Part shown: one piece after another, positions 40,161 through 59,434 of the stretch
How positions within the stretch are numbered: the stretch's first letter is position 1
Layout of the letters: each line of letters begins with the position of its first letter
Source: Adhaeribacter aerolatus
GTDB taxonomy: Bacteria; Bacteroidota; Bacteroidia; Cytophagales; Hymenobacteraceae
Direction: 5' to 3'
Length of the DNA: 64,000 nucleotides
NCBI RefSeq assembly: GCF_007991635.1
Contig: NZ_BJYS01000004.1
Location: forward strand, 124,001-188,000
Notes under the pieces: model-generated
Seen by the model: only the letters and a program-made list of their open reading frames with translations
Database searches by the model: none
What the model was told of the DNA's origin: nothing
Position numbers and translations under genes: made by a program

Positions 40161-40393
40161 ATTTATATAATATTATTACTCAAAAAGTGCCACAAATAGG
40201 TAGCACAAGAGAAAACATTCGCGACCTACTTTTCACAACCAGGTTTTACAAACAACTAATTTCCCACTCTATGCTCAGTAGCTTAGATGCTGCTTTTGGT
40301 TACTCCTTCCCTAGGTATTAATGTCATGCACCGCAAATAAAGATGTACTATTAACCCTTAATAGGTTACAAATATTTAAATCCAAATAACCGT

Positions 40394-41590: not shown

Positions 41591-43261
41591 TTATTTCAAT
41601 GCACTCAGTCCTTCGGCAAAACCGGAATAAGCCGGCTTCCGGATAAATCCCTGCGTCCATAATCCTATTGGTTCGGAGGCATCCATGGAGTTAGAAACAG
41701 TAATACCATAGCGCTGTTTAGCCGGCACTAATTCAACATATTTGCCAACTACATATTGGTACATTTCTTTTTGCGCTTGGTATTGTTCCGGAGTAGCTTT
41801 ATCTGTCGTAACGCCAACAGCAACATTCAGTCCGGATACTCTTACCATTTTTCCGGTAGCGGCCAGTAACTGAAACATGGTTGCAATATTTTGCTTATCG
41901 GTATTAAGGTTCAGGTTCATTTGGGTTCCGATGCCATCTACTTTCGCGCCATTGCTTTCCAGATAATTTACATATTCGATCAGGCCTTTGGTTTTATCTA
42001 AGTTTTGCTCCAGATTGGTATCATTAATGAACAACAAATCAGTTGCATTACCCTTTTCCCGGGCAATTTTGAAAGCGATTACCCCATAATCTTTTCCCAG
42101 ATAATCCTGCCAGTAAAACTCATCTGCTGCTAACGTTCTGCCAATTCCGGTTCTAAGTTCAGTGGGGTTTGCATCATTCATTGGCTCGTTTACTACATTC
42201 CAGGCCTTTACTGAACCCTTAGCAGCAGATACCATTCCGGTTATCCAGCGTTGCAAGGCATCGGTTAGAATTGTTTTCTTCTCTTCTACCGTTTTCTCCA
42301 CTATTATATCGGTGAGTTTCCATTGCATGGTAACATTATCAATATAATAATTTGCCGATCCGGTAGCCGATCCGAGCGCAATGGTGAAGCTAGTCAGTTT
42401 CTTTTGCGCTTCGGTCAGGTTCAGGTTAGATAATTGCATCACAATTTTTCCTCTTCCCCAAGCCCCGTCCGGAGCGCCATAAGCCGACGGAGAATTAAAG
42501 TTGGCTAAGGTTCCGCCGTTTATACTCATTCTCATACCCTGACCAAACAAACCAGTACTGCCCGTGGCATAGATATCTATCGTCACCGATTCGTAATTGC
42601 CTAAAGTCCGACCATTGGTCAGGTTAATGGTAAATTGGGGATGCGTCTGGACGCCTACAATATTCAGAACCTTGCCGGATGCCCCTGCCACCGGATCGTT
42701 TACCACGGTTCCGCTGCCGCCACTGGTCATCGGATAAGTTTTACCCAGATTATCCGTTTCAAAATCAGCTACTACATCTGTTCCGGTACTACCACCGCCG
42801 GGTCCGGTTGCGGGAATAATGGTGGGAGCAATTAAACTCTTTAAATAAGTGGCATTCTGATTAGAGTGCGAAGCCAGCGTATGGCCATAAACAGCAACGC
42901 CGGCCTTATCCGCTATTTCAAGTAAACTTTTCACATTAGCCAGGTTAAGGCTTCCGTCTGCTTGCACTACTGCGCCGTGCTTTAGAGTATTTCCGGCCGT
43001 AATTTCATCATAATTACGATTGATAAGCCGGTATAAAACTCCTTTTTGGTTATAATCGGATAAAGCTACACCAGTACCTAATTTAAAACCGGGGTTGGTT
43101 GCTCTATTTACATAAGTTTTCAGGTCGGCGTAAGCGTCAATTTCTTCCTGGGCAGCAACACTTGCCGGTTTTTCAACATTAAATTCAAGGGGATCATAAT
43201 CACAGGAGGATGTCAATATTAATCCGGTAAAGCAAAGTACTGCTTTATATAAATGCTTCAT
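41591..43261 (-). CDS. GH10-like lipoprotein with inserted CBM, catalytic nucleophile missing (putative xylan-binding protein)
   Basis: 556 residues, lipobox LTSSC with Cys20 followed by acidic residues (DYDPLEFN). A GH10 barrel is interrupted at about 150-320 by a beta-sandwich module of the kind found in Bacteroidota Xyn10 proteins. The acid/base is kept (Glu359 in WNVVNEPMND), but the nucleophile strand reads RVSGLNV, with Gly477 where GH10 needs Glu. The -1 subsite motif GHTLxWHS is GHTLASHS (Ser131), and the late Trp region is reduced to GITVSNSMD. It is therefore probably not hydrolytic and may be a surface xylan-binding protein. It occupies the xyn10 slot of the xus core and is closed by a terminator. 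Confidence 0.85.
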   Translation of the reverse strand: MKHLYKAVLCFTGLILTSSCDYDPLEFNVEKPASVAAQEEIDAYADLKTYVNRATNPGFKLGTGVALSDYNQKGVLYRLINRNYDEITAGNTLKHGAVVQADGSLNLANVKSLLEIADKAGVAVYGHTLASHSNQNATYLKSLIAPTIIPATGPGGGSTGTDVVADFETDNLGKTYPMTSGGSGTVVNDPVAGASGKVLNIVGVQTHPQFTINLTNGRTLGNYESVTIDIYATGSTGLFGQGMRMSINGGTLANFNSPSAYGAPDGAWGRGKIVMQLSNLNLTEAQKKLTSFTIALGSATGSANYYIDNVTMQWKLTDIIVEKTVEEKKTILTDALQRWITGMVSAAKGSVKAWNVVNEPMNDANPTELRTGIGRTLAADEFYWQDYLGKDYGVIAFKIAREKGNATDLLFINDTNLEQNLDKTKGLIEYVNYLESNGAKVDGIGTQMNLNLNTDKQNIATMFQLLAATGKMVRVSGLNVAVGVTTDKATPEQYQAQKEMYQYVVGKYVELVPAKQRYGITVSNSMDASEPIGLWTQGFIRKPAYSGFAEGLSALK

Positions 43262-43286: not shown

Positions 43287-44258
43287 TTATTTACCCACCG
43301 GTACAAACGTTTCCATGGCAACGCCCCGATTCCGCATTACTAAAGTATCAGTAGAAGTAACCTGCATTTGCTCCAAATCAATTTTATAATTCAGATAAAT
43401 AGCATCCCGATCAGTGTTGCCCCAGCTTTTCTTTTCTCCTCTTTTCACAAATTTTCCATTACCCGAAACGGTGTAATTAGTAGCATTGGTCGTTACAGAG
43501 CAGTTACCTTGCTCGTCAAAGGTTAGAATTAAAGTAGTGTTAATATTTTTCCCTTCTTTGTCTTTATAAACTACTGGCACCTCTACTTTGCTCAGCGATT
43601 GGGTAGATAATTTAATAAGTTCATCTTTCTCTACATAGGGTTGATGCCTGACAATCGTTTGACTCAGAGAGGTGTTTCCGTTCTTACCTTCAATTACATC
43701 TTTCCCCCGGCGCAGGTAAAAGCCATGCCACGGATTAACATATTTCACGGCGTATAAGGTAAAATCTTTACCCGTCAAAACAGAATCGGCATTCTCAACA
43801 TTGGTTATTTTCAGGGGAATTACGTAAGTATTTTTTATTGCCAGCGGATCCGCAAAGAATGCATCAGTGAGTTGTACTTCAACTCCTCCTATTAATTTAC
43901 CTTTTGGAATTATAATTTTGTCTGATGTTAATTTATAGTAGCCGTCGGGCATTGTCTTTACCTCGCTTCCGTTTGGGCTAAACCGTAAATTCTGGTTTAA
44001 TTCGTTATTTACGGCTACACCAATGGTAACATCTTTTTTATTTTCATAAACCCCGCCGGTAGTAGCCATAATCTGAAATTTATGTTCATTGTCGAGGGTT
44101 GTATCAAAAATATCTTCTCCTAAAGTGATGGTTCTAACGGGATACTGGTAAGCGAAATACGTTGACTGGTAATCAAAATCCGGAAATACTACTTCCTGAT
44201 TTTCGCATGAAGTCAGCATGGCCAGTATGATTAAAAATGTAAAGGATATCTTTTTCAT
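43287..44258 (-). CDS. xusE: SusE-position surface lipoprotein (BT_3987/DUF1735-like), XusE equivalent
   Basis: 323 residues with lipobox MLTSC (Cys18) followed by EN. The N-terminal half resembles the DUF1735/BT_3987 Ig-like domain (FAYQYPVRTITLGED ... DVTIGVAVNNELN), and the C-terminal half, from NPWHGFYLRRGKD, is a second beta-rich domain often joined to it. There is no enzyme motif. Its place straight after the second SusD matches xusE of the described xylan core cluster. The likely role is binding xylan at the cell surface and handing it to the SusCD transporters. Domain names are from memory of the family pattern. Confidence 0.75.
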   Translation of the reverse strand: MKKISFTFLIILAMLTSCENQEVVFPDFDYQSTYFAYQYPVRTITLGEDIFDTTLDNEHKFQIMATTGGVYENKKDVTIGVAVNNELNQNLRFSPNGSEVKTMPDGYYKLTSDKIIIPKGKLIGGVEVQLTDAFFADPLAIKNTYVIPLKITNVENADSVLTGKDFTLYAVKYVNPWHGFYLRRGKDVIEGKNGNTSLSQTIVRHQPYVEKDELIKLSTQSLSKVEVPVVYKDKEGKNINTTLILTFDEQGNCSVTTNATNYTVSGNGKFVKRGEKKSWGNTDRDAIYLNYKIDLEQMQVTSTDTLVMRNRGVAMETFVPVGK

Positions 44259-44314: not shown

Positions 44315-46075
44315 TTACCATCCGTTATTTTGGGTTAAAGCCTTAAACTTTAGAATTTCGCTGTAGGGAACTGGTCCATAATTCATGTATTCACTATACA
44401 CCCTGTCCTCCACATTTATCGTCTCATGATTTCCGCCTGAAATCTGTATTCCGCGAGCCGGTTCATTCGTATTTAACTTCCAGCGGCGTAAATCCCAAAA
44501 GCGGAAACCCTCGAAACAAAGCTCTAAACGGCGCTCATTTCTGATTAACTCCCGCATCGTTTCTTTATTAGACCTGACAGATTCGAGATAATTATCTGGT
44601 TGCCTGATACCCGCCCGTTTGCGGATAGCGGCCATAACATCATAAGCCGAGAAACCGAACGCACCGGTACCAGCAGGGCCCCAGGCTTCATTAGCCGCTT
44701 CGGCATAGGCCAGGTATATTTCGGTATAGCGGATGCGGGGCTGATAATGTCTTTGGTTGGTGGTTGACTGGGGATTAAGGTTAACATCCTGCCGGAGTAA
44801 TTTTCTTAAATAATAACCGGTGCGGGTAGAGGTTTCTACTTTCCTTAACCCATCATTGGTCGGGCTATCGGCGGCCGAATTAATTACGGTATTACTTACG
44901 CCTGCCGTACCGCCGTTTACTACAATATAGCGGGTTAAACGGGGGTCGCGGTTAGTGTAAGGTGCCGACGGGTTAAAATTGCTGGATGGATGCGCGATTG
45001 GATACCCGTTGTTCATCGGAAACGAGTTAACCAGGTTTTGCGTAGGATTCAGCCGCCCGCTACCAAACAGGGTTGGCGGAAAATGTTGGCGTTCAAGGCC
45101 ATTACTTTCACTAACATCAGCTCGCCAAAGTATCTCCCGCGGGCTAACGCCCGAGCCCAGGGCGGCGATTTCAGACCGGTTATCGTACCAGGTGCCGCCA
45201 TTCGGATCCAGCCCGTTTACTCCTCCATTCAGGGTTATTACTTCGCCAGCATAATTTGCGGCATCGGCCCAGGTAGTAGTGTTGCCGGTATTGTACGCGG
45301 GGCTGGCTGCTAAAAGGGCTACCTGAGCTCTTATGGCCTTGGCAATCCGGGCGGTCATCCGCAATTTGGCATATTCCCCAAATACGCGATCATAGTTACT
45401 TACTACATCGGTTTCACTACCCGTACGGTACTTTTCCGGAACCTGAGAAATGTTGGTAACCAAATTATAATCCAAGGGCAGCAGTTCTTCGGCATTTTTA
45501 AGATCGCTGTAGATTTGTTTCATGCAATCTTCAAATGTATTCCGGGGTTTATTAAAATCAGATTTAGCATCTTCCGGTTCCAGCACGATGGGCACTCCTA
45601 ACAATTCTCCGTTAGACCAACCGGCATGGTTCAGCAATAAATGATACATGAAAAGTGCCCGCAGCCCATACGCCTCACCTTTCATCCGGTCTCTAAACAT
45701 CAGGCTTACCTCCGGATTATTGGCCCACTTCACTTGATCCACTTCCTTCAGCATAATATTCAGGTACTGAATAGCTGCTTTTGAATTTTGCCACTGACTA
45801 AAGGGATCCATATTGGCGGCCCATTGGCCGGTAGCTGCTCGCCGGAAATTATTGTTTACATCGTTACTTACCGCATCATCGGTAGCCACATCATTAAAGG
45901 TATAGCCATTCGTCGGGATACGGGCATACCCATTCAGCAATATTCCTTGGGCAAACAGTGGTTCGCCGTACATGGCATCTAAGTCCCGAATATTCTGGTT
46001 TGCCGGTTCAAACAAATCGTCGCAGCTGCTAAATAGTAAGGTTACCGACAAAAAGAATAGTAATTTCTTTCTCAT
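44315..46075 (-). CDS. xusD: SusD-family outer-membrane lipoprotein (second pair)
   Basis: 586 residues, lipobox LFSSC with Cys18 and following DD, typical of surface-exposed lipoproteins. SusD/RagB fold: TPR-like helices and the C-terminal RNERRLELCFEGFRFWDLRRW signature region, ending with NPxW-like NNGW. It acts as the lid and glycan-binding partner of the SusC at 46095-49022, which ends 20 nt upstream. Being second in a tandem SusCD array, it may prefer a different xylooligosaccharide from the first pair. Confidence 0.92.
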   Translation of the reverse strand: MRKKLLFFLSVTLLFSSCDDLFEPANQNIRDLDAMYGEPLFAQGILLNGYARIPTNGYTFNDVATDDAVSNDVNNNFRRAATGQWAANMDPFSQWQNSKAAIQYLNIMLKEVDQVKWANNPEVSLMFRDRMKGEAYGLRALFMYHLLLNHAGWSNGELLGVPIVLEPEDAKSDFNKPRNTFEDCMKQIYSDLKNAEELLPLDYNLVTNISQVPEKYRTGSETDVVSNYDRVFGEYAKLRMTARIAKAIRAQVALLAASPAYNTGNTTTWADAANYAGEVITLNGGVNGLDPNGGTWYDNRSEIAALGSGVSPREILWRADVSESNGLERQHFPPTLFGSGRLNPTQNLVNSFPMNNGYPIAHPSSNFNPSAPYTNRDPRLTRYIVVNGGTAGVSNTVINSAADSPTNDGLRKVETSTRTGYYLRKLLRQDVNLNPQSTTNQRHYQPRIRYTEIYLAYAEAANEAWGPAGTGAFGFSAYDVMAAIRKRAGIRQPDNYLESVRSNKETMRELIRNERRLELCFEGFRFWDLRRWKLNTNEPARGIQISGGNHETINVEDRVYSEYMNYGPVPYSEILKFKALTQNNGW

Positions 46076-46094: not shown

Positions 46095-49022
46095 TTAAAA
46101 TAACGCTTTAACGCCTACATTATAAAAGCGTGATTGAGGCGCACTACCAACATTCATCTCCATAATTTCCCGCTCCTTGGCCACCGTAAGTAAATTAAAG
46201 CCATTCACGTAAATCCCCATTTCCTGAATAAATGATTTCCCAAATAGGTTTTGCGGCAAATCATACGAGATTTGAATTTTTGCCAAATCAAACCGGTTGT
46301 TTTTATACATCCAGAAATCAGAACTTCTGAAATTATTATCGGCACTTAAGGTTGTTAACCGCGGATAGGTGGCAGTATTTTTGGTTTCTTCCGTCCATCG
46401 GTTACGGGCTACCTCCGAATACTTACTTTCTCCGGCTACCCGGAAGTAAGAACTGTTTTTCATACCATTTGCGCCGTAACGACTCAGGCCTAAGGCAAAA
46501 AAGGTAAAGTTTTGCCACTTAGCGGTTAGGTTGAGGCCCATGGTAAGCGGAGAACCGTACATGCCGTTTCTTCCCAGGTAAACCTCGTCTTGCGCATTAA
46601 TAAGACCATCGCCGTTTTGATCCAGGTATTTAATATCACCTGGTTTTACCTGACCGAAAGTCTGGGTAGGGGCATTATTTATATCATCCTGGCTCATGAA
46701 GAACCCATCACTCTTTAACCCCCAAATAGCATCCAGCGGCCTTCCTGCTCTATTCTGATAATCGTCTTCGTACATTTCGGCACGCTTCAGCGCTTTGGTT
46801 TCGTAGTAGGTTCCTACCAATCCTAAAGTCCAGGCTACCCGCCCAATATTTTTGTTCAGATTTAAATTAAAATCAAAGCCTAGGCGCTGATCATCGTTGT
46901 AGTTTACATAGGGAATAAAGGAAGCATTAGGAAAACCGGTAGAAAAGTAAGTTGGATATAAAACAGAGGCCTGCACCACATTACCCGTTACTTTGTTAGC
47001 AAAAACCGAACCTTCAAACGTGAGCAAATTTTTAAATAAAGATGCTTTAATACCCACGTTTACCTCATCTCGTTTGGCAAAAGTAAGATTAGGATTTTCG
47101 CCTCTTCTGGAATCGGTAGTTCTGTTAAGAACCCCGTCCCGCCAACTGTACCAAGCCCCGTCGGTTTGGGTGTAAATACTGGTATATAAATAATAATCCG
47201 GAATATTCAGGTCGGTATGCAATCTGCCGGCCGATACCGAAAGTTTTAGGTTATCTACTACAGATGAATTCTGCAGGAAATTCTCCTCACTCAGGCGCCA
47301 GCCCAGCGACACGGTGGGAGAAAAAGCCTGTCGGTTAGCTTCTGGCAATCTGGCAGAATGTACCACTGCCCCATTAAAATCGGCATAATATTTATTCTGA
47401 AAATTGTAGCCCAGGTGTAGCCCCAGGTTTGCATTACTGATTTTGTGATAAGCGCCCGAATTAGATTGCTGGTAACCGTTGGCTAATAGCAATGCAGAAA
47501 AATTATGCTTATTATTTATTGAATTCTGGTAATTTAATTGGCCCGATAATGCCAGGGTTTGCCGGTACGTAGAACCCGAAATATTTAAATTTCCGGATCT
47601 GATATCGGTACCATATTGGGTTAAGCTGGAAATCTGGTCGGTACCGGCATAATTATTCCAGGCAGCCTCAAATACCGCATAATTATTATTAAACGATTGG
47701 GTATAGGTAGTGGCGTAATCAACCCCAAAAGTAGATTCAAAAGTTAATCCGCGCAGCACATGGTTTAAATTGGCTCCTACCCCCGTGTTAAACTGAAACT
47801 GACGGCTGGTAACCTGGGAGTTACCGCCGGCGTAAATGGCGGCAAACGGATTGGTTTGATCTAGTTGGGTACCTCCCAGAATATATTGACCATTTATCAG
47901 GTTTTTGGTATTATTTATTTTCTGCCACGAAGCTTCATCACTTTCCTCAATAAAGCTTACCGGAATGAGGGGAGCAAACCGGTTTGGGCGGAGCGTGGCG
48001 GCATTTTGCCAATAATCGGTGTTTACGCCCCGCTGGTTATTGTAAATAGCGGCGGCATCAACTTTGGCGTAAATATTTTCATTTATCGTAACATCTACAT
48101 TTCCGCGCACATTTAACCGGTCGGATGTATTATTGTTTTTTGCCTCACCAAAGTTTAACAAAGAGCCGGCTGAATTATACCCAATGTTGGTGTAATAGCG
48201 GGCCAGCTTGTTACCTCCGGAAATCTCTACGGTACCATCATACCGATTATAGGTTTTTTTCAAATATTCGGATGAATAATAATCTACATTCGGATACCGG
48301 TAAGGATTTAACCCGGCAGCATGGTTATAAATGGCCGCATCGGAATATAAATTGCCTAAACCATCGTTCCGGCGGGCTTCATTATAAAGCGTCATGTATT
48401 CGGCTGAACCCAGGTACTTGGGAACGCTTTTAGGAACAAATATTCCCGCATTTACCCGGGCTTTGATTTTCAGGTCCTGGGCCTCTCCTCTTTTGGTAGT
48501 AATAAATATTACCCCTTTAGCAGCCCGGCTGCCGTAAAGCGCTACCGCCGAAACACCTTTCAGAAAAGTTATTTGTTCTATTTCGGTTGGCATTACGCTA
48601 CCAGGTTCACGCGGTATGCCGTCTACCAACACTAAATTACCATCCATGCCCCAAATATTGCCATGATAACCATTGGCCAAACCCTCCATGTTCTCCAAGG
48701 CATTAATGGAATAGTTTCTTTCCAGCATTTCCGCTACGTTAACAGCCGTAACATCTCCCGGTAAATTTCTTTTATCTACTTTCCGAAACGCTACTTGTAC
48801 CGGAATTAAATCTTTATTTAAATCCGTGGTAATTAAAGAATCCGAAACTATCTTTTTGCTACTTTCCTGCTTCTTGCTGGCTACAACCTGGGCCCGGGGC
48901 TTTTTTTCAGCATTCCGGGCAATGGCCTTTGCAGAAACCATACTGGTTGTCTGGGCATTCAGTACCACGGGCACCACCGTGATTAGAGCGCCTAATACTA
49001 TTTTTTTATATATGTATTTCAT
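46095..49022 (-). CDS. xusC: SusC-family TonB-dependent transporter lacking the N-terminal regulatory domain (second pair)
   Basis: 975 residues. A signal peptide ends near NAQ (about 24). Instead of the usual carboxypeptidase-like domain with its SLVGATV pattern there is an unstructured, lysine-rich stretch of about 45 residues, then a plug with GNLVLVDGIPREPGSV and FLKGVSAVALYGSRAAKGVIFITTKRG-type motif, and a barrel ending in FYNVGVKALF. It imports xylan oligosaccharides across the outer membrane with its SusD. It follows the first SusD by 47 nt. The shorter N-terminus distinguishes it from the SusC at 50980-54213 and may change coupling to TonB. Confidence 0.92.
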   Translation of the reverse strand: MKYIYKKIVLGALITVVPVVLNAQTTSMVSAKAIARNAEKKPRAQVVASKKQESSKKIVSDSLITTDLNKDLIPVQVAFRKVDKRNLPGDVTAVNVAEMLERNYSINALENMEGLANGYHGNIWGMDGNLVLVDGIPREPGSVMPTEIEQITFLKGVSAVALYGSRAAKGVIFITTKRGEAQDLKIKARVNAGIFVPKSVPKYLGSAEYMTLYNEARRNDGLGNLYSDAAIYNHAAGLNPYRYPNVDYYSSEYLKKTYNRYDGTVEISGGNKLARYYTNIGYNSAGSLLNFGEAKNNNTSDRLNVRGNVDVTINENIYAKVDAAAIYNNQRGVNTDYWQNAATLRPNRFAPLIPVSFIEESDEASWQKINNTKNLINGQYILGGTQLDQTNPFAAIYAGGNSQVTSRQFQFNTGVGANLNHVLRGLTFESTFGVDYATTYTQSFNNNYAVFEAAWNNYAGTDQISSLTQYGTDIRSGNLNISGSTYRQTLALSGQLNYQNSINNKHNFSALLLANGYQQSNSGAYHKISNANLGLHLGYNFQNKYYADFNGAVVHSARLPEANRQAFSPTVSLGWRLSEENFLQNSSVVDNLKLSVSAGRLHTDLNIPDYYLYTSIYTQTDGAWYSWRDGVLNRTTDSRRGENPNLTFAKRDEVNVGIKASLFKNLLTFEGSVFANKVTGNVVQASVLYPTYFSTGFPNASFIPYVNYNDDQRLGFDFNLNLNKNIGRVAWTLGLVGTYYETKALKRAEMYEDDYQNRAGRPLDAIWGLKSDGFFMSQDDINNAPTQTFGQVKPGDIKYLDQNGDGLINAQDEVYLGRNGMYGSPLTMGLNLTAKWQNFTFFALGLSRYGANGMKNSSYFRVAGESKYSEVARNRWTEETKNTATYPRLTTLSADNNFRSSDFWMYKNNRFDLAKIQISYDLPQNLFGKSFIQEMGIYVNGFNLLTVAKEREIMEMNVGSAPQSRFYNVGVKALF

Positions 49023-49069: not shown

Positions 49070-50968
49070 TTACCAACCTGGGTTCTGGCTAAATTCCAGG
49101 TACATGTTTACATCCGCATTTTTCAGGGGTAACCAATAGTGCTTTTCCGTAAACCGGCGTTCTAATATTACCACTTCCCGCAGGTTGGCTACCCGGTTTT
49201 GCTTAGGATCGGTAGTATTAAAAGTACCTACCCGGTCAAATTCTATTGATTTTTTGAGGGTATAAGGGCTTTGGATTAGCAGCAGCCACCGGCGTAAGTC
49301 ATTAAACCGGTGCCCTTCAAAAGAGAGCTCTACCGCGCGTTCTCTTCTTAGTTCCTCCATAAAGGCCTCTAAAGAGCCTTGATACTTAGCCGCAATACGT
49401 CCAACTCCAGCCCGGTCACGGATTACATTTAAAGCCTCTACCGCGTTTTTAGTAAAACTGGAAGATTTACCGGTCGGGTCGTTAAAACCTTGAGCCGCTG
49501 CTTCGGCATACATAATATATATATCGGCCAAGCGCATGTAAGGAATTTTAATGTGTAAGCTGTTACCGTAATCAAATCCACCATCGTACCGGTTAGCCTT
49601 CAGGGGAATAAATTTGTAATTCAAATACCCGGTGCGGCTACCCGAATTCACGTTCCGGTAATTACCGCTGGTGAACAGGTTGGCATAGCGAATACTCTGA
49701 TCTACGTTGGCCGGCAAGCTGCCCTGCACTACTTTAACCCCATCGTATACAATATCATTATAGAAACGTGGGTCACGGCCTCGCCAAGGATATTCCGGAT
49801 CATAACCCGACTCTGCGTCTGGTTTGGTAATATCCGGAATGGGTAATCCGTTGGCCATGCCATAATTATTTACATAATTAGAAGTAGGCAAAAATTTGAC
49901 TGTTTCATCGGTTAAATGCGGAGATGGCTGGTATTGTTTAGAAGTGTTCCAGTTGGAGTTGTTTGCCCCCCAGGTAGGAGCCCGGAAGATAGCTTCGGTA
50001 CTGCCCGGCATTAACCAGTTTTGGCCTTGCGTGTAAAAGTTACTGGAATAATTAGCAAAAGGAACCAGGGCATACTGCGTTTGGCCACTTTCTACCAAAG
50101 TCAATAATTCGCCAAATGCTTCAGCGGCTTTTTTGCTAAGTTCCTGGTTATAAGTAATACTTCCGGTTGATACTTTATTCATTAAGGGGCTGCCGGCCCA
50201 GAGATAATTTTTGCCCAGGTAGCCCAAAGCCATTATTTTATTAATGCGCAAGGAGTTTTTACCCAGGGTTCTTCTGCCGGCTGTGGTATTGTCCCAGTTA
50301 ATGGGCAATAAATCGGCTGCTTCTCTAAAATCCTGAGCTGCTCTTTCGGCAGATTCGTGATAACTTAACCGGGGTAATCGTAACGGCTGGTCGGAAGGAA
50401 GTACCTTATCTATATAAGGCAGTCCGCCAAAGTACTGCATAAACTGAAAATGGAACCAGGCCCGGAAGAAAAGCAATTGACCTTTAATCAGTTTTTTCTC
50501 TTCCTCTGTGGCATCCGTCATTTTATCCAGATTTTCCAGGCCCATATTGGCTTTCCGGATGCCGTACCAGCCTAAGGGCCATAATCTTTTTTGCATCCGG
50601 TCGGTTGATCCCGGATTGGCAGCCGCTCCATTACCATCCATCCAGCCAGCGCCCCAGCCGTCAAACTGTTGCTGCCAGCCCCAAAAATCGCCGTTATCAA
50701 TTTTAATTATATAGTGAAAAGTTTGCGCCGTGGATTGTATTTCGTCCTCGCCCCAGTTCCACGAATTTGTCCAGTAGGCATTGGTAAAATCCGGAACGCA
50801 ATGGTAAAGCTCTTCGGTAAAGCCTTGAAAGTTAACAAAGTTCCTAAAAGCATCCTCCGGCGATACTACCGATTCAGGGGTTCTTTCCAGGTAATCTTCG
50901 CAAGCGGATAATAAAATTAAACTCAATGCAAGGCAACCCTTACAAATTATATTTATAATTTTTTTCAT
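49070..50968 (-). CDS. xusB: SusD-family outer-membrane lipoprotein (first pair)
   Basis: 632 residues, lipobox LLSAC with Cys23, followed by EDYLERTPES, a standard SusD opening. It has the helical SusD/RagB core and the C-terminal RRERAVELSFEGHRFNDLRRW motif, ending FSQNPGW as is typical. Partner of the SusC at 50980-54213, from which it is separated by 11 nt. It binds xylan fragments at the cell surface and closes over the transporter. Confidence 0.93.
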   Translation of the reverse strand: MKKIINIICKGCLALSLILLSACEDYLERTPESVVSPEDAFRNFVNFQGFTEELYHCVPDFTNAYWTNSWNWGEDEIQSTAQTFHYIIKIDNGDFWGWQQQFDGWGAGWMDGNGAAANPGSTDRMQKRLWPLGWYGIRKANMGLENLDKMTDATEEEKKLIKGQLLFFRAWFHFQFMQYFGGLPYIDKVLPSDQPLRLPRLSYHESAERAAQDFREAADLLPINWDNTTAGRRTLGKNSLRINKIMALGYLGKNYLWAGSPLMNKVSTGSITYNQELSKKAAEAFGELLTLVESGQTQYALVPFANYSSNFYTQGQNWLMPGSTEAIFRAPTWGANNSNWNTSKQYQPSPHLTDETVKFLPTSNYVNNYGMANGLPIPDITKPDAESGYDPEYPWRGRDPRFYNDIVYDGVKVVQGSLPANVDQSIRYANLFTSGNYRNVNSGSRTGYLNYKFIPLKANRYDGGFDYGNSLHIKIPYMRLADIYIMYAEAAAQGFNDPTGKSSSFTKNAVEALNVIRDRAGVGRIAAKYQGSLEAFMEELRRERAVELSFEGHRFNDLRRWLLLIQSPYTLKKSIEFDRVGTFNTTDPKQNRVANLREVVILERRFTEKHYWLPLKNADVNMYLEFSQNPGW

Positions 50969-50979
50969 GAGAATTCAGC

Positions 50980-53900
50980 TTAAAAAGTAATATTAGCCCC
51001 GATGTTGTACCTTTTTACCGTAGGGTAAGCTCCTTGGGAGGCCCAGCCGGTACCCGCAAAATTAGATTCCCGGTCATCCGGCATTTTGGTCCATAACAGC
51101 AGGTTATTTCCGTTCACAAAAAGCCGAATATTATTCAGTCCGAATCTTTTTAAAGATTTAGATTCTAAGGTGTAAGCCAGCTCGGCATTTTTCAGACGGA
51201 TATAAGAACCATCATAAAAATATTGACTGCCCCGGTAATATTCGGCGGGCGTGGTTAGCCAACGCGGCATTGGAGTATCGGCATTGGGATTATCTTTCGA
51301 CCAGATACTGCCTTGCTCATACACCACATTGTTTTGAGAACCCAAACTGTTAAACACTACCTGGCGGGTTACATTATTTACGCCGTAGAATTGCACAAAG
51401 CCGCTAAACCCTTTCCAGTCTAAGCCCACCGTAGTATTATAGGTGTTTTGCGGATTTCCGGAATATTCGAAAGGAACATTATCGCGGGAGTCAATTACCC
51501 CGTCGCCGTTATAATCAATGAGGTGGTAATTCCCCGGTATTTTCCAGGCATCATTCTGGTTATGCATGGTACTGGCATACAGTTCATCCCAAGTATTGTA
51601 ATAGCCTTGGCTCACATAAGTATAAGCTTGTCCCAATTGCTTGTCTGCTCTTTTCTGATAATCAGGGAGAAGTTCCGGGTCATCGGCAAAAAGCACTTTA
51701 TTTATGGCGTGGGTCATATTGGCATTAGACCATAGGCGGATGCCATTTGCGAAGGAGTGGTTGAAGTTAAGTTCAAATTCATAACCTTTGTTTTTTACTC
51801 TTCCTAAGTTGGCAACCGGAGCCCGTGTTCCGTAATAAGAAGGTACCGCACGGTTATTTCCAGGCAGGAGAATATCGGTACGTTCGTCGTTAAAATAATC
51901 TACGCTACCTCTTAGCAATCCTTTAAATAATTCAAAGTCGAGACCAATGTTTGCTTTGGTTACCACTTCCCAATGCACATCCGGGTTTCCAACCGTAGAT
52001 TCCCGGTACCAAGTATAAGGGCTATTCTCGCCACCCTCACCCACTACACCAAACCGTCCCGCGCCGCCATATGCCCAATTAGACATGAAAATGAATCGCT
52101 CATTAATATTGTCATCTCCGATTTGCCCGTAGTTACCTCTGATTTTCAGATAGTTCAGAAAGGTGATTGGTTTCATAAAGTTTTCTTCGGAGAGCATCCA
52201 ACCAAGGCCGGCCGATTGAAAGAAGGCAAAACGGTTTTCCTTATTGAATTTTTCTGAACCGGTATAAGCCCCGTTGTATTCCAGCATGTATTTGCCGGCA
52301 TAATTGTAAGTAGCCCGGTACACCCAGTCTTCCCGAACCCGGGGAATTTCACTTCCGGTAGCAGTTTCATTGCGGTTAACCAGACCCAGGGTGGTAATAT
52401 TATGCTTTTGCCCCAGGGTAACGCCATAGTTTAATTGTGCCTGGTAAAAAAGCCGGCGAGCCGTAGCACCATTATCAATTGCTCCCGGAGCGGTGGTCCA
52501 GGCTACTGCTTCCTGAAAATCAAACCGGTTACTGGTATCAAATGCCTGCCGGTATACTTCCTGGCCGGTTTCCGGATAAATGTATTTTTCCTGGGCGGTG
52601 TTGTTAGCATCATTAATACCTCTTCCGGTTTCTACAAATACATTATCAAAAGCAATGGTGCCGGCAAATTTCAGGCCTTTAACCAACTTGTCTAATTTCT
52701 GTTCCAGGGTAAAATCAGTATTCAGGCGGGTATTGGTTATATATTCAATACCACTAATTCCCACGGTCCGCATCGAATTTTCGGCTCTACTGATCAAAGG
52801 TGCATAATACCCCCACGAACCATCTGAATATTGCGGATAAAAGGCATCCGGGGCATTACTGTAGGCAGCAGCCCACATATAAAATTCGTTAGCCCTGGCC
52901 ATTGGTTTTTTTGACACCCCGTACGAACCGGAAAGGTTGCTTTTTAAAACCGTGGTAGGCGTTAACTGAAAATCCAGGTTACTTCGCACGTTCATGCGGT
53001 TAAAACCATAACCACCTTCGTACCCGCGGTGATTGTCATACACCCTGAAAAGGTCTTTTTCCTGCAGAAAATCGGCACTGGTAAAATACTTTACCAATTT
53101 GGTACCGCCACTGATATTCAGGCTGGCATTATAAGCCATGGCGTGATCCTTAAATAATTCTTTCTGCCAGTCTATATTCGGATATCTTTCTCTTTCTGCC
53201 TGATCGGCCGGATTGCGGTATTTTTCAATGATGGCTTGAGGCACATAACTGGTCCAAGCTTCTGGCCGGAGCGACAATTCGTTTTCTATGGCCTGGTTGC
53301 GAATTTGGTAAGTATCGTAAGCATCCATTTTACCAGGCAATTTAGAAGGCGTTTTTACGGTGGTTTGCACCCTTGCCCGAATTAAAGCTCTACCTTCAAC
53401 ACCTCTTTTGGTGGTAATCAGAATAACACCGTTTGCTCCGCGTACGCCATATACCGCGGTAGCGGAAGCATCTTTTAATACAGATACTGACTCCACTGAA
53501 CTAATATCCACGCTATTCATGGGCCGTTCAATACCATCCACCAGAATTAGCGGCGAAGAGTTATTCCAGGTACTGCTACCACGAATCAAAATCCTAGGAT
53601 CTTCTTCTCCGGGCATACCTGTACTAGAGGTAGTAATTACTCCCGGTACATTACCGGTTAAGGCAGCTCCAATACTTTGTACACCGCCGGCCCGTTCCAA
53701 CACTGCACCTTTGGTTTGCGTAATGGCCGCAATTACACTTTCTTTCTTCTGTTCCCCATAGCCTACTACCACCACTTCTTCCAATGTTTTAACATCGGCT
53801 GAAAGGGTAACATTAATCCGCGTCTGGTTTGTAACAGCTACTTCTTTAGTAACATAGCCTATAAAACTAAAAACCAATATTGCATTCGGGGATGATAGAT

Positions 53901-54213
53901 TTAGGGTATAGTTTCCGTTTGTATCGGTAGTGGTGCCAATATTTGTACCTTTTACAAATACGGTTACACCAGGTGCACCCTGATTATCATCACTTAATGT
54001 TACCTTTCCAGTAATTACTTTATCCTGCCAGGGAGCAGTTTGCTTATCAACCTGAAGCTCCAGTTTTTCAGGTGGAAGGTTGATTTCAGAAGTGCTTTTA
54101 GGTTGAAAATGTGTAACAGATGCCTGTGCTACTCCAACTAAAAAACACTGAACAGAAATTCCTATAAATGCATATTTGACCCTATGCAGGTTTTGTGGTA
54201 GAAATTTTTTCAT
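50980..54213 (-). CDS. xusA: SusC-family TonB-dependent transporter (first pair)
   Basis: 1077 residues. After the signal peptide (to about 32) comes a CarboxypepD_reg-like domain (about 65-140: ITGKVTLSDDNQGAPGVTVFVKG), a TonB-box-like EEVVVVGYG, a plug with LILVDGIERPM and SVLKDASATAVYGVRGANG, and a 22-strand-type barrel ending RYNIGANITF. It is the first gene of the xus core and imports xylooligosaccharides. Transcription is probably controlled from the repeat array and -7 box at 54703-54811, giving a leader of about 480 nt. The divergent hybrid regulator is the obvious activator. Confidence 0.94.
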   Translation of the reverse strand: MKKFLPQNLHRVKYAFIGISVQCFLVGVAQASVTHFQPKSTSEINLPPEKLELQVDKQTAPWQDKVITGKVTLSDDNQGAPGVTVFVKGTNIGTTTDTNGNYTLNLSSPNAILVFSFIGYVTKEVAVTNQTRINVTLSADVKTLEEVVVVGYGEQKKESVIAAITQTKGAVLERAGGVQSIGAALTGNVPGVITTSSTGMPGEEDPRILIRGSSTWNNSSPLILVDGIERPMNSVDISSVESVSVLKDASATAVYGVRGANGVILITTKRGVEGRALIRARVQTTVKTPSKLPGKMDAYDTYQIRNQAIENELSLRPEAWTSYVPQAIIEKYRNPADQAERERYPNIDWQKELFKDHAMAYNASLNISGGTKLVKYFTSADFLQEKDLFRVYDNHRGYEGGYGFNRMNVRSNLDFQLTPTTVLKSNLSGSYGVSKKPMARANEFYMWAAAYSNAPDAFYPQYSDGSWGYYAPLISRAENSMRTVGISGIEYITNTRLNTDFTLEQKLDKLVKGLKFAGTIAFDNVFVETGRGINDANNTAQEKYIYPETGQEVYRQAFDTSNRFDFQEAVAWTTAPGAIDNGATARRLFYQAQLNYGVTLGQKHNITTLGLVNRNETATGSEIPRVREDWVYRATYNYAGKYMLEYNGAYTGSEKFNKENRFAFFQSAGLGWMLSEENFMKPITFLNYLKIRGNYGQIGDDNINERFIFMSNWAYGGAGRFGVVGEGGENSPYTWYRESTVGNPDVHWEVVTKANIGLDFELFKGLLRGSVDYFNDERTDILLPGNNRAVPSYYGTRAPVANLGRVKNKGYEFELNFNHSFANGIRLWSNANMTHAINKVLFADDPELLPDYQKRADKQLGQAYTYVSQGYYNTWDELYASTMHNQNDAWKIPGNYHLIDYNGDGVIDSRDNVPFEYSGNPQNTYNTTVGLDWKGFSGFVQFYGVNNVTRQVVFNSLGSQNNVVYEQGSIWSKDNPNADTPMPRWLTTPAEYYRGSQYFYDGSYIRLKNAELAYTLESKSLKRFGLNNIRLFVNGNNLLLWTKMPDDRESNFAGTGWASQGAYPTVKRYNIGANITF

Positions 54214-54702
54214 GTTATAACTGATTGATTTAAACTATTTGAATGGTTCTGTTCTCTGCTTCAACTGATAAATAGAAGTTGAACTTCAAAACGAAGTAAA
54301 AAAACAGTGCCCAAATATGATTTTGGATATATCCTAACGCTTATTGATTTTCATTAAAAATTTAATTTATCTTAGAAAATATTATTGCTCTTTCAATTAT
54401 TTCCATAGCTCATTCGTTGTATCTGCTATGGGCATTAGTTAAGCCTTCAAAATTGGCCTTAATACACCTTTTTGCGGGTCAGCACACCTTTCTTTTGCAT
54501 AATCAACCATTTAATTCTTTGCCTCAAGTGCTGTAAGGAGCGAATAATGGTTACTATTACCTGGTATATCTAAAGCAATGCTTTGGCCAGATCTAGAAAA
54601 CTATTGCTGTTAAGCCTACCTGGAAACTCCTCTAAAATTATTTTTATTCAAAAAGACACTTAATCAAAAAGCCATGGAATAGCCTGGAAATTTTATCAGG
54701 AT

Positions 54703-54710
54703 CAAATGTA
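54703..54710 (-). promoter_or_regulatory. Candidate -7 box of the xus core operon
   Basis: TACATTTG on the minus strand, an exact TAnnTTTG match. No TTG is seen at -33, as expected for an activator-dependent promoter. The nearest of four 21-bp-spaced repeats ends 30 nt upstream of it. The rest of the 54214-55246 gap shows no other exact match facing xusA. Confidence 0.55.
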
Positions 54711-54740
54711 AATTATAATTAGCTAAGACCTAAATGGGCG

Positions 54741-54811
54741 TATTACAAGTGTTTTACACCATGTTACATGCAAACTAGTTATTGTTACATATATTTATTC
54801 CCTTGTAACAT
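54741..54811. promoter_or_regulatory. Four operator-like repeats with an exact 21-bp period
   Basis: TATTACAA (54741), TGTTACAT (54762), TGTTACAT (54783) and TGTAACAT (54804) start exactly 21 nt apart, that is two helical turns, so all four would face the same side of the DNA. They lie between the divergent hybrid regulator and xusA, just upstream of a TACATTTG -7 box. Direct repeats in phase are typical AraC-family binding sites, and the regulator at 55247 has an AraC-type DNA-binding domain. The second and third copies are identical; the first is the weakest. Confidence 0.7.
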
Positions 54812-55246
54812 ATTGGTCAAATTTCAATGTATAAGGAGTTTTCTGTAGCTTAAGGAAAATTGATCCAAAAGAATTTTACCAAATACTCAGCCTTCTTCAG
54901 ATAGAACCTTTTAATTGTTAGCTTAACACTTACATTTAAAACCATTAAAAATCAAGCAGGCCTATTGCCGCAATTTTCTAGAATTAACAGTTATTTTTAA
55001 ATTCAACAGTAAGGGTTGTACTACTGGTTAGAGGGTCAAAAGATGAAAGGTATAGCAGGTTTAAAATCTTTATCCGACTAAGGTTAATAAACCGGTTCTT
55101 GAGCCAACCTGGAATATGGAACAAGTGCTCCGAACATAGCTTAATATAGAATTGTTATAATCGGGTTAATTGTATAAGTTTATAATCCTGAAAAGGTAAA
55201 AAAGGATTAAGTGTTTGGATATAAACTATTCTGGAAAAAGGGTTAG

Positions 55247-58200
55247 ATGGAATTTTATAAAATCCGGAATAGGGACATGCTACAAAAACTCCTCCTAAGC
55301 ATTAATAGTTATTTTGCAGTGAGCATAAAATTTAAGCTTCTTTTCCTATTTTTTTGGATTTTCAATTTGGCCTATGGGCAGTCCGGCAAAATGTTTACTG
55401 CCGATTTAGAACTATCCAATAGTTTAATTTATCAGGTTTACCAGGATGGTAAGGGTATTATTTGGATAGCCACAGAAGATGGGTTAAACCGGTACGATGG
55501 TTCTAAGTTCTCCATTTATAAGCATGATCCGGGAAATCAGAAATCTATATTAAATAATTTTGTACGCCTCCTGTACGAAGACAAAAAAGGTCATCTGCTA
55601 ATTGGCTATTTTAATGGCTTACAGCTATACGATCATGCTACTGATTCCTTCAGGCAAATTCCTCTACTACTAGAGGGTGGCGGTAAATTTGATGCTCATG
55701 TGCTCAACATAACTGAACGGCAAAATGGTGAAATTTTAATTGGAACTGCTGGTTTTGGGGTATTCTCGCTAAAGTTTGAGGGCGGGGTACCTAAAGCACA
55801 GCAAATAAAAGGACAAATTCCCGCCAATATCATCGACTACCTTTTTGAAGACAAAGAGCAAAATCTTTGGGTAGCAACCAACGACAAAGGCCTTTTCCGG
55901 GTTAGCAAGAATGGCAAAATAAAGCACTTCAGCGAATTTAAGGATATGCCCAAAAGCGCTATTCCTATTACCAATATTTGCCAGGATAAGGCGGGCAATG
56001 TGTATGTGAGTAGTACAAACAATGGACTTTTTGTTCATAATAAAACTACCGACGACTTCAGCCAGATTCCCTATCCACCCTCTCCAAATCTATCCATCAG
56101 CACCATGTACCTGAACCAAAAAGACCAGTTGTACCTGGGAACGGATGGCGAAGGCATAAAAATTTATGATCTGAAGAAAAAGGTTTTTACGGATGGTAAC
56201 TTCAATGTAGCAACGTTCGATTTCAAAAAATCAAAAGTACACTCCATTCTGGAAGATAAAGCGGGTAACCTGTGGTTAGGCATTTACCAGAAAGGCGTGA
56301 TGCTGTTACCTGCCAGTGCCAGTAATTTTAAATACATCGGGTATAAATCAATAAATAATAACACCATTGGCTCCAATGCCATTCTTTCAATTTTTGAGGA
56401 CCATGAAGGCACGCTTTGGGTTGGTACCGATAGCGATGGGCTTTATGGGATTGGATCAAATGGAAAGCAAATAGCGCATTTTAGCCGCACCAGCGACCCC
56501 AGCTCCGTTTCTTCCTCTATCATGAGCATTTTCGAAGATTCGAACCATACTCTTTGGTTGGGTTCTTACTTGCATGGTTTAGCGAAATTAAACCGTAAAA
56601 CCGGGGAATGTGAATATATAACTACCCTGCGGGACGAAAATTCCGAACCTGTTAAGCGGATCTACAGCATTGTGGAAGACCAGCAAAAGACGCTTTGGAT
56701 CGGCAGTATGGGAGCCGGCCTTTTCTCCATGGACTTAGGCTCGCAAAAGATTATCCATTATAATTCCGCTCCTGGCCCTAATAACGCGGATACTAATAAT
56801 TTTCTCCGTAATCCCTGGATTAATAGCCTGCTATTGACCAGCAAGGATAAATTATACGTTGGCACCTATGATGGCGTTGGCTGCCTGGACTTAAAAACAA
56901 AAGATTTTGCTTCTACGCATGGTACCAATCGCCTGCTCCAGGGCCAAATTGTTTATTCCTTATTTGAAGACCAAAAAGGCAACATCTGGATGGGCACTTC
57001 CCAAGGATTAAAGCATTTAAATAGCAAAACAAACGAAATAAAAGCTTACACCATGGAAGATGGCCTGCCCAACAATGTTGTAAGTGCCGTTAAAGGAGAC
57101 GAAGCCGGTAATATTTGGATCAGTACAAATTATGGTGTCACCAAGTTAAATACTACAGACAATAGCTTTATTACTTATTATGCCAATGACGGCTTGCAAG
57201 GAAATGAGTTTAGCAAAGGCGCTGCATTCGTAAATGCCAGAAAGCAAATCTTCTTTGGCGGTATTAATGGCATTACCTACTTCCATCCGGCGGAAATCCC
57301 TGCTGTAATTTCTGCCCCCGGCAAGAAGCTGGAAGTTCGCATCACCGGCTTTTATCTTAATAATCAGGCAGTAAAGAAAGGTATAAAATCCGGCAGCTAT
57401 GATATTGTGGATGCCGCGGTAATGGATGCTGATAAATTCCACCTCTCGCATAACGATAACTCGTTTAGCATAGAATTATCGGCCATGGACTTTGCCAATC
57501 CTGAGCGGATTACTTACCAATACTCTTTAAAGGATGAGGACTGGACTAACTTACGTCCGGGAACAAATACTGTAAACTTTACCGATCTGGCACCCGGCAC
57601 TTATCGATTCCGGCTTAGGGCAAAAGATTACAGCCATTATTCTGACGTAAAAGAGATTTCAATTGTTATTTCGCCCGCCTGGTATTTTTCTAACTTGGCT
57701 AAATTCGTCTACGGCTTAATATTGGTAACCGTGCTTGGATTAGTACTGTTGCAGATTCGCCACCGGCAGCGTACCCGCCAGAAAATGCAGGAGCACCTGC
57801 AGGCCAAACAAATAAATGATGCCAAGTTGCAATTCTTTATTAATATCTCCCACGAGATTCGCACCCCCATGTCGTTAATTATTAGTCCTCTGGAAAAATT
57901 AATAACGATAGACAAAGACCGGGAGCGGCAAAAGTCTTACGCCACCATGCAGCGTAATGCCGGACGCATTCTGCTCCTTATTAACCAACTCATGGATATT
58001 CGGAAAATCGATAAAGGCCAAATGCAATTAAAATTTCAGGAGACCGAAATCGTAGGATTTATAAAAGAGCTTTGTGCTATATTCGACGAACAAGCTCAGG
58101 CCAAAAATATTCAATTCAGCTTCGACCACCAAATAGAACAGCTACCGGTGTGGGTGGATCCCCATCATTTTGATAAGGCCATTTTAAATGTGCTATCCAA

Positions 58201-59434
58201 TGCATTTAAATTTACTCCTAAAAACGGGAGAATTCACCTTGATCTCCGCACCGGGCAAGACGAAACGGCCGTAAATGAGCTGCGCCATTATTATGAAATA
58301 ATTATTTCGGATAGTGGCATTGGCATTGAAGAAAGTGAGCAGGAAAAAATATTTGAGTGTTTTTACCAGGTTCGAAAGACCCAGAACCATTTTGGGGAAG
58401 GTACCGGCATTGGCTTAAACCTAACCCGCTCTATCCTGGAACTTCACCATGGCACCATCCGCGCAGAAAACAACCAGGAAGGACAGGGCTGCAAATTTAT
58501 TATGCGGTTGCCCTTGGGAAAAACTCACCTAAAAACAGAAGACCTGGTGGAAACAGTACCGCAGGTGCAGAAATCGGAGGTGTCTGCTCACCCCTTACCA
58601 GCACTGGCAGATGATGTAGCAGAAGTTAAAGTAAAAGCAAAAACCAAAAGCCGGGTGCTGGTGGTAGATGATGATGAAGAAATCCGGAAGTATATTTGTC
58701 AGGAATTTGCTACTGAGTACCACCTGCTGGAAAGTGCCAATGGGAAAGAAGCCCTATCCATTATATTAAATAAAGCCCCTGATTTAATTATAAGTGATGT
58801 GATGATGCCCGAAATGGATGGAATAACACTTTGCCGAAAAATTAAACAGAATGTAAATATTAACCACATTCCAATCATTTTGCTGACCGCCAAATCGGAA
58901 GAAGCAGATAGATTAGAAGGTTTAGGTATTGGTGCGGACGCTTATATGGTAAAGCCTTTTAACATCCAAATTTTGAAAAAGACGGTTCAGAACATCATCA
59001 AAAACCGGGAGATGCTCCGCAACACTTTTAATGGCAATCAAACGCAAGGTGATAAGGTACAGAAAGTAGCGATTAAGTCGGCAGATGAAAAATTAATGAA
59101 TAAGCTCTATAGTATCATTAATCAGAACATTAACAACCCCAACTTAAGCGTGGAAATGATTTCGGGTGAGATTGGTATCAGTCGCGTACATTTGCATCGT
59201 AAGCTGAAAGAATTAACCAATCAATCTACCCGAGATTTTATTCGCAATATCCGCCTGCAACAAGCGGCAAACCTACTCTCCAGCAAACATTTAAATATTT
59301 CTGAGGTTGCCTTTGCCGTAGGATTTACCAGCCTTGCGTCTTTTTCAACTGCCTTTAAAGAACTTTATGGTGTATCCCCAACGGCCTATATGGATTTGCA
59401 TTTGAACCAGTACGAAAAAACCAGAAGCAATTAA
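55247..59434 (+). CDS. Hybrid two-component system regulator of the xylan locus
   Basis: 1395 residues, a full HTCS: signal/TM near 25-45, a periplasmic two-bladed propeller sensor of many Reg_prop repeats (about 60-690, each with a IWIATEDGLNRY-like unit), a Y_Y_Y domain (about 745-825), a membrane helix (about 830-852), HisKA with phosphorylatable His869 in NISHEIRTPMS, HATPase (about 970-1095, DSGIGIEESEQ and GTGIGLNLTRS), a receiver with Asp1184 in IISDVMMPEMDG, and an AraC HTH (about 1290-1390, VAFAVGFTSLASFSTAFKELYGVSP). Such proteins sense an oligosaccharide in the periplasm and activate the adjacent locus. It is divergent from xusA with 1,033 nt between, so it probably controls the xylan genes. 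Confidence 0.95.
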   Translation: MEFYKIRNRDMLQKLLLSINSYFAVSIKFKLLFLFFWIFNLAYGQSGKMFTADLELSNSLIYQVYQDGKGIIWIATEDGLNRYDGSKFSIYKHDPGNQKSILNNFVRLLYEDKKGHLLIGYFNGLQLYDHATDSFRQIPLLLEGGGKFDAHVLNITERQNGEILIGTAGFGVFSLKFEGGVPKAQQIKGQIPANIIDYLFEDKEQNLWVATNDKGLFRVSKNGKIKHFSEFKDMPKSAIPITNICQDKAGNVYVSSTNNGLFVHNKTTDDFSQIPYPPSPNLSISTMYLNQKDQLYLGTDGEGIKIYDLKKKVFTDGNFNVATFDFKKSKVHSILEDKAGNLWLGIYQKGVMLLPASASNFKYIGYKSINNNTIGSNAILSIFEDHEGTLWVGTDSDGLYGIGSNGKQIAHFSRTSDPSSVSSSIMSIFEDSNHTLWLGSYLHGLAKLNRKTGECEYITTLRDENSEPVKRIYSIVEDQQKTLWIGSMGAGLFSMDLGSQKIIHYNSAPGPNNADTNNFLRNPWINSLLLTSKDKLYVGTYDGVGCLDLKTKDFASTHGTNRLLQGQIVYSLFEDQKGNIWMGTSQGLKHLNSKTNEIKAYTMEDGLPNNVVSAVKGDEAGNIWISTNYGVTKLNTTDNSFITYYANDGLQGNEFSKGAAFVNARKQIFFGGINGITYFHPAEIPAVISAPGKKLEVRITGFYLNNQAVKKGIKSGSYDIVDAAVMDADKFHLSHNDNSFSIELSAMDFANPERITYQYSLKDEDWTNLRPGTNTVNFTDLAPGTYRFRLRAKDYSHYSDVKEISIVISPAWYFSNLAKFVYGLILVTVLGLVLLQIRHRQRTRQKMQEHLQAKQINDAKLQFFINISHEIRTPMSLIISPLEKLITIDKDRERQKSYATMQRNAGRILLLINQLMDIRKIDKGQMQLKFQETEIVGFIKELCAIFDEQAQAKNIQFSFDHQIEQLPVWVDPHHFDKAILNVLSNAFKFTPKNGRIHLDLRTGQDETAVNELRHYYEIIISDSGIGIEESEQEKIFECFYQVRKTQNHFGEGTGIGLNLTRSILELHHGTIRAENNQEGQGCKFIMRLPLGKTHLKTEDLVETVPQVQKSEVSAHPLPALADDVAEVKVKAKTKSRVLVVDDDEEIRKYICQEFATEYHLLESANGKEALSIILNKAPDLIISDVMMPEMDGITLCRKIKQNVNINHIPIILLTAKSEEADRLEGLGIGADAYMVKPFNIQILKKTVQNIIKNREMLRNTFNGNQTQGDKVQKVAIKSADEKLMNKLYSIINQNINNPNLSVEMISGEIGISRVHLHRKLKELTNQSTRDFIRNIRLQQAANLLSSKHLNISEVAFAVGFTSLASFSTAFKELYGVSPTAYMDLHLNQYEKTRSN

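Follow-up and report, generated by a model that had tools for sequence, protein, structure and literature searches.

A four-unit, 21-bp direct-repeat array in fixed register with the -7 box of a xus-type operon is the probable operator of the neighbouring HTCS in Adhaeribacter aerolatus

The window, i.e., the whole 64,000-nucleotide stretch of the Adhaeribacter aerolatus genome that was analysed, carries a xus-type polysaccharide locus, in which the gene of a hybrid two-component (HTCS) regulator stands divergently to a series of minus-strand genes. The genes relevant to this work were assigned as follows.

55247-59434, plus strand: HTCS regulator with sensor propeller, Y_Y_Y, HisKA, HATPase, receiver and AraC-type DNA-binding domain (from domains and orthologues)
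50980-54213, minus strand: xusA, SusC-like TonB-dependent transporter, first gene of the operon thought to be controlled (from domains and orthologues)
49070-50968, minus strand: xusB, SusD-like lipoprotein (from domains)
46095-49022, minus strand: xusC, second SusC-like transporter (plug domain; named by position)
44315-46075, minus strand: xusD, second SusD-like lipoprotein (from domains)
43287-44258, minus strand: BT_3987-like_N and DUF5627 protein at the xusE position (from domains; the name xusE by position)
41591-43261, minus strand: GH10 protein at the xyn10C position, downstream in the same direction (domain scan)
39015-40160, minus strand: GH10 xylanase, which in relatives has its own operator just upstream

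The minus-strand order past the BT_3987-like_N/DUF5627 gene is GH10, esterase, second GH10, alpha/beta hydrolase, GH97-type and SASA-type esterase, followed by a 173-aa protein with no Pfam match, GH43, GH95 and GH43. Two tandem susC/susD pairs, xusE (by position) and GH10 are present, and these elements make up the core xylan utilization arrangement (PMC3747994). The HTCS combines the sensor, HisKA, HATPase, receiver and AraC-type domains in one chain. It is the one protein with a DNA-binding domain among the 19 window proteins scanned, and the PDB relatives of that domain include an HTCS protein, SoxS and MarA. In Prevotella bryantii, xylan genes are controlled by the HTCS XynR, with a core of xusABCDE and GH10 (PMC8002723, PMC3747994). 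The present locus resembles XynR/xus in its genes (HTCS, core xusABCDE and GH10).

The array occupies the intergenic region from which xusA and the HTCS gene diverge. As a pattern, TGTWACA reads the same on both strands, and the strand on which the first-pass annotation read the boxes was therefore a free choice; the minus strand is the useful reading relative to the promoter and is used in the list below.

54839-54842, minus strand: conserved A-tract upstream of the array; its last A occurs in 22 of 23 aligned promoters
54811-54824, minus strand: conserved element that immediately precedes unit 1; it reads AAATTTGACCAATA in the window and is ATTTGGCCATTA-like in many relatives (23-promoter alignment)
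54804-54810, minus strand: box of putative operator unit 1 (distal), TGTTACA on the xusA strand; 21-bp unit 54790-54810; exact TGTWACA in 20/23 promoters
54783-54789, minus strand: box of putative operator unit 2, TGTAACA; unit 54769-54789; exact in 21/23
54762-54768, minus strand: box of putative operator unit 3, TGTAACA, then a conserved A-rich stretch; unit 54748-54768; exact in 18/23
54741-54747, minus strand: box of putative operator unit 4 (proximal), TGTAATA, one mismatch; exact in 9/23, at most one mismatch in 15/23
54703-54710, minus strand: -7 element TACATTTG of the xus promoter; the proximal box starts 37 nt away

Direct reading confirmed the earlier claim of four boxes with exact 21-bp steps, starting at 54741, 54762, 54783 and 54804. 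The corresponding octamers are TATTACAA (54741-54748), TGTTACAT (54762-54769 and again 54783-54790) and TGTAACAT (54804-54811). The accompanying description of the promoter also held, with TACATTTG at minus-strand 54710-54703, 30 nt from the nearest box of the array, and with no TTTG or TTG ending 18-23 nt upstream of it, as expected from the reported absence of a -33 element. The sequence at the -33 place is CCCATTTAGGTC, and unit 4 (54727-54747) spans this place. Primary-sigma promoters of Bacteroidota are described as having TAnnTTTG at -7 and TTTG near -33, and for Flavobacterium johnsoniae the same source gives the -33 motif as not found (PMC7366714). TACATTTG conforms to the -7 element of this description, and the -33 TTTG is lacking. 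The -7 box lies approximately 490 nt from the xusA start codon (window 54214-54702). The distance between the array and the start of the SusC ORF is roughly 290-1150 nt in seven relatives, and long leaders thus seem common.

A motif-free score (four octamers, evenly spaced with a step anywhere from 12 to 40) was compared between the window and 40 dinucleotide shuffles. The array reached 37, the best score of the window, and the shuffles a maximum of 36, so the array by itself is suggestive and marginally beyond chance, not decisive. The expectation was approximately 4e-9 per 64 kb with the heptamer TGTWACA, which was chosen after the fact. The genome scan proposed in the first-pass annotation found mismatch-free TGTWACAT-N13-TGTWACAT nowhere else in the 6.68 Mb genome; when up to two mismatches were allowed, the whole genome gave 19 matches, six of them at the array, and 12 with the reversed control pattern. 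The marginal motif-free score of the window taken alone would suit an origin by chance or as a low-complexity repeat, which we nevertheless regard as extremely unlikely, as the conserved arrays, the co-occurrence with the HTCS, the fixed -7 spacing and the profile match reported below are all contrary to it.

The spacing of exact TGTWACA pairs up to 70 bp apart was determined in 385.5 kb of DNA, comprising the window and 20 fetched stretches. Pairs were found at 21 bp (41 pairs), 42 bp (27), 63 bp (8) and 35 bp (2); no other spacing up to 70 bp occurred twice in this DNA, and for three control heptamers no spacing was repeated. A total of 26 arrays or pairs were listed and 23, including that of the window, were aligned. 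The three dropped (two in L083 and one in L084) came from genomes G171 and G194, and were left out because these three-box matches had no locus context and profile R1 (see below) gave no match at those places. The aligned arrays precede xusA, the GH10 gene orthologous to 39015-40160 and further genes of the loci. They had been picked by their boxes alone, without reference to the -7 element. Measured from the start of the fourth box position, the distance to the beginning of the -7 box is 37 nt in 16/23 promoters and 38 nt in 7/23, and at this fixed spacing the canonical TAnnTTTG was present in 21/23 and TACATTAG in two. Promoters with fewer recognisable boxes showed a measured distance of 58 or 59 nt, and in three-box arrays one degenerate 21-bp unit was assumed to fit the 37/38-nt rule. 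Exact boxes numbered 20, 21, 18 and 9 of 23 from the distal to the proximal unit. The least conserved box is thus that of unit 4, nearest the promoter, which corrects the first reading; it is never exact in the 11 GH10-type and L074 promoters (0/11). TTTG occurs near -33 in three of the 23 promoters, and 20 are without it. A conserved A-rich stretch lies near position +14 of the unit, most clearly in units 1 and 3, and a TTTGGCCA-like element and the A-tract are conserved upstream of unit 1. The genomes are related, and the 23 promoters are therefore not independent.

The position of the window array between the divergent xusA and HTCS genes would also fit two separate pairs of units, one serving xusA and the other autoregulation of the HTCS. 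This arrangement is very improbable, given that the same one-sided register is kept before GH10 genes whose far-side gene is not an HTCS (arrays in L067, L069, L071, L073, L077, L078 and L079).

The co-occurrence of array and regulator was examined in 204 genomes of the same family. A close orthologue of the HTCS (72-100% identical) was present in 12 of them, source genome included, and the next best HTCS match by score beyond these was 36% identical. The array pattern TGTWACA-N14-TGTWACA-N14-TGTWACA, with at most one mismatch, was found in 13/204 genomes: 11 of the 12 with the HTCS orthologue versus two of the 192 without it. The reversed control pattern matched one of the 204 genomes, G005. 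The exception among the 12 is also G005, a genome of the same genus with a 76% identical HTCS, no triple pattern and no close xusA; its only two intact boxes precede its GH10 gene, which was counted against the best explanation. Close xusA orthologues (66-100%) were detected in nine of the 204 genomes, all nine with the HTCS and arrays. G141 and G173 lack a close xusA and carry both the HTCS and arrays, the absence of xusA in G005, G141 and G173 being taken from the 204-genome search, which includes positives.

The array is kept in front of genes that lie in the same loci as orthologous HTCSs. The first-pass annotation had linked array and regulator by position alone; the link is now supported by the co-occurrence (11/12 versus 2/192), by the fixed -7 distance before several genes of the polysaccharide locus and, further, by matches in Bacteroides and Parabacteroides genomes with related HTCSs (see below). 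The boxes might alternatively bind another regulator of the locus, with the HTCS co-occurring merely as a gene of the same locus, and further locus genes do co-occur with the arrays. We consider such a regulator improbable: the arrays persist where a close xusA is absent, the HTCS is the protein with a DNA-binding domain among the window proteins scanned, and 21-bp direct repeats are the geometry predicted for HTCSs (PMC3878776) and also precede the -7 boxes of further HTCS loci. The array is very likely the operator of the neighbouring HTCS, whatever the stoichiometry, and the 55247-59434 protein is proposed as its ligand.

Two models were built from the promoters of the same 21 relatives, the window being excluded. 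A weight matrix scored 98.2 bits at 54747 on the minus strand; the next place in the window scored -41.6, and the best of three mononucleotide shuffles -53.7. The sequence-only profile R1 found one convincing site in the source genome, the array itself (E 6e-17; also read backwards, E 1e-3), and the next separate place had an E value of 0.27. Each of ten other orthologue genomes contained one to four R1 sites at E up to 1e-6, counts that omit opposite-strand re-reads and come mostly from sites used to build R1. G005 gave a partial site (E 3.6e-5), and in eight tested genomes with no HTCS orthologue no R1 match was better than 3.6e-4. The GH10 promoter of G183, which lay outside the building set, was found at E 2e-11. 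The R1 sites in G159, G173 and G193, also outside the building set, comprise units 3 and 4 only, which makes the four-unit form common, not universal, in these putative regulons. They are located at L244 8567-8677, L245 5132-5211 and L246 5845-5943, at the right distance from TATATTTG and before a 512-aa gene with no match among the window proteins.

For the GH10 gene at 39015-40160, no second operator was found in the window by the weight matrix, the profile or the alignment, and degenerate boxes suspected near 40323-40375 were not upheld. Relatives keep an operator at the place of window 40161-40393, which has no detectable one, and G005, of the same genus, keeps two boxes there; the GH10 operator has apparently decayed in this genus.

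We additionally tested self-similarity by lag upstream of intergenic TAnnTTTG boxes (174 in total, near 92 HTCS loci that do not belong to the xus-type group). Similarity was raised at lag 21 (z 5.4), flat at lag 42 (z 0.2) and z 1.4 at lag 63. The lag-21 signal peaked in the register of units 3 and 4, with a weaker rise approximately 21 bp further up. With the control box GTTTnnAT, z was 2.0 (lag 21) and 2.3 (lag 42). The corresponding values for the 23 xus-type promoters were 4.5 (lag 21), 5.9 (lag 42) and 2.5 (lag 63). A de novo search for three-unit repeats of any period over the HTCS loci showed no peak at 21. The presence of 21-bp without 42-bp periodicity near the 92 other loci suggests that two units in fixed register are usual; in the xylan type, this ordinary HTCS promoter often seems to be extended by a further two.

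For 16 HTCSs of B. thetaiotaomicron, direct-repeat operators with a mean spacing of 21 bp were predicted by Ravcheev et al. (2013; PMC3878776), with two sites per operator lying on one helix face, dimer binding proposed and HTCS genes beside susC/susD; Table 1 of that article assigns no HTCS to xylan. The window array is like these predicted operators in the direct repeat, the step of ~21 bp, the single helix face and the HTCS beside susC/susD, and unlike the two-site motifs in having four units and a 37/38-nt lock to the -7 box (PMC3878776). Its geometry, which the first-pass annotation treated as rarely defined for such regulators, is accordingly not unprecedented, since 21-bp direct repeats had already been predicted for HTCSs (PMC3878776). 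The four-unit array contains the two-site form as units 3-4. Judged by the open-licence literature searched, what is new is the set of four units locked to the -7 box, a well-supported variation on the known 21-bp HTCS direct repeat. Class II activator sites of the AraC family (araI1-I2, XylS Pm) consist of two direct repeats of ~21 bp (two helical turns), with the proximal site at the -35 region and one two-HTH domain per site, and are bound by soluble regulators at sigma-70 promoters. In contrast, the present array has four sites, a membrane-bound hybrid kinase and a Bacteroidota -7 box.

In the mechanism that we favour and consider reasonably likely, the array is the HTCS operator, and two dimers on its four units would activate xus from the -7 box upon sensing of xylo-oligosaccharides. 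Each 21-bp unit, with its TGTWACAT and an A-rich stretch ~14 bp from its start, would be the site of one AraC-type domain, and reading of two DNA turns by the two helix-turn-helix motifs of that domain would explain both the box and the A-rich stretch. Sensing of xylo-oligosaccharides would lead to phosphorylation of the receiver domain. With one DNA-binding domain per unit, the four direct-repeat units on one helix face would hold four domains and thus two membrane-anchored HTCS dimers. As the -33 element is absent and its place falls within unit 4, the bound HTCS may stand in for it; the HTCS would then recruit RNA polymerase to the TACATTTG -7 box, and xusABCDE and the xylanase genes behind would be switched on. 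Intact membrane HTCSs were found to bind DNA by ChIP-seq (PMC3404733), and the binding of HTCS receiver-DNA-binding domain segments to DNA was reported to be phosphorylation-dependent (PMC11253607). For the window system, we infer that the HTCS binds the array as two dimers and in dependence on phosphorylation, that this binding activates transcription, and which sugar is sensed.

A single dimer might instead be needed, or be working at a time, with units 3 and 4 as the activating pair and units 1 and 2 as auxiliary sites. This is in line with the lag-21 signal near the 92 other HTCS loci, strongest at units 3/4 and with no lag-42 signal, and with the G159, G173 and G193 promoters, two-unit promoters of the same regulon that leave room for one dimer. 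It is opposed by the conservation of units 1 and 2, which is at least that of unit 3 and above that of unit 4 (20, 21, 18 and 9 exact of 23), and by the strong lag-42 similarity of the 23 aligned promoters (z 5.9). We regard a single dimer as possible, with some doubt; units 1 and 2 could then, tentatively, raise the local concentration, provide an alternative register or act in repression. Two dimers on four units remain the reading we prefer. The two-unit and four-unit promoters, as recognised by R1 within what appears to be one regulon, are a natural comparison and make the question of HTCS stoichiometry directly testable.

Profile R1 was also run over 80 HTCS loci (L087-L166), of which one had a site at E up to 0.01. 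This site, in L092, is the xusA promoter of B. oleiciplenus (E 7.7e-6). A scan of the whole B. oleiciplenus genome added matches over nearly the full profile length on contigs C1 and C2 (E from 1.8e-6 to 0.024). At the eight sites examined (L235-L240), the first same-strand ORF was SusC-like at three, GH10 at one and GH43 at one; at the other three it had no match among the window proteins. B. oleiciplenus encodes at least four members of this HTCS family, some of them near R1 sites, and any of these regulators might serve a given site. In a Parabacteroides genome (HTCS 56% identical), two sites 15-20 kb from the HTCS (E 8.6e-6 and 0.008) precede a SusC-like and an esterase-like gene. Among HTCS loci of the genus Bacteroides, with flanks of ~1.5 kb, 10/30 matched at least 100 of the 123 profile positions at E up to 0.01. 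The 54 Bacteroides-locus rows were reduced to 32, leaving out opposite-strand re-reads and weak rows, and examined for boxes. Nine of the 32 have four boxes, each with at most two mismatches, in 21-bp steps and with a -7 box at 36-38. Some of the remaining rows contain a step of 20 bp, and six yielded no -7 box. The -7 offset was taken here as the best of 36-39 and is therefore weaker evidence than the spacing in the 23 promoters. No such array was found within the locus DNA examined of L088, L089, L091, L115 and L137, whose DNA-binding domains are 57-61% identical. Array carriers share the sequence ISRVHLHRK(L/M)KELTNQ in the putative first recognition-helix region, with an H-to-Y change in two, and distant HTCSs differ from it; it is kept too in loci with no verified array. 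The sharing among array carriers speaks for the favoured mechanism; the helix in loci with no verified array, the fractions of 1/80 and 10/30 loci and the five relatives with no array found speak against it.

We tentatively suggest, as a generalisation that may well not hold, that xylan-type HTCSs across Bacteroidota act as a pair of membrane-anchored dimers bound at four sites in rigid phase with the -7 box, in a doubling of the ordinary two-site HTCS promoter, and that the number of 21-bp units (two or four) sets the steepness of the response of each operon. If so, promoter strength and threshold would be readable from sequence. The four-site operator with its exact -7 register, matched by profile R1 in genomes from this family to Bacteroides, provides a sequence rule that is of help in finding xylan regulons.

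Further sites were noted in the course of this survey. L238 (G204 C2:178658) has a near-full-length site before two GH43-type genes of B. oleiciplenus, which share 72% identity with window 32455-34029 and 27823-29568 and lie on a different contig from the xus locus; the site is a possible target in trans in a genome that holds several related HTCSs. Two exact TGTWACA boxes 21 bp apart lie upstream of the HTCS gene in L092 (9822-9849), and a short TGTWACA site upstream of the HTCS gene was seen near position 1000 in L205, L206 and L208-L210, which are B. oleiciplenus-type loci; autoregulation of the HTCS is possible in these loci. Four TGTWACA boxes with steps of 22, 20 and 22 bp are located at L110 5850-5920, in a Labilibaculum MAG, downstream of the gene of a 30%-identical HTCS.
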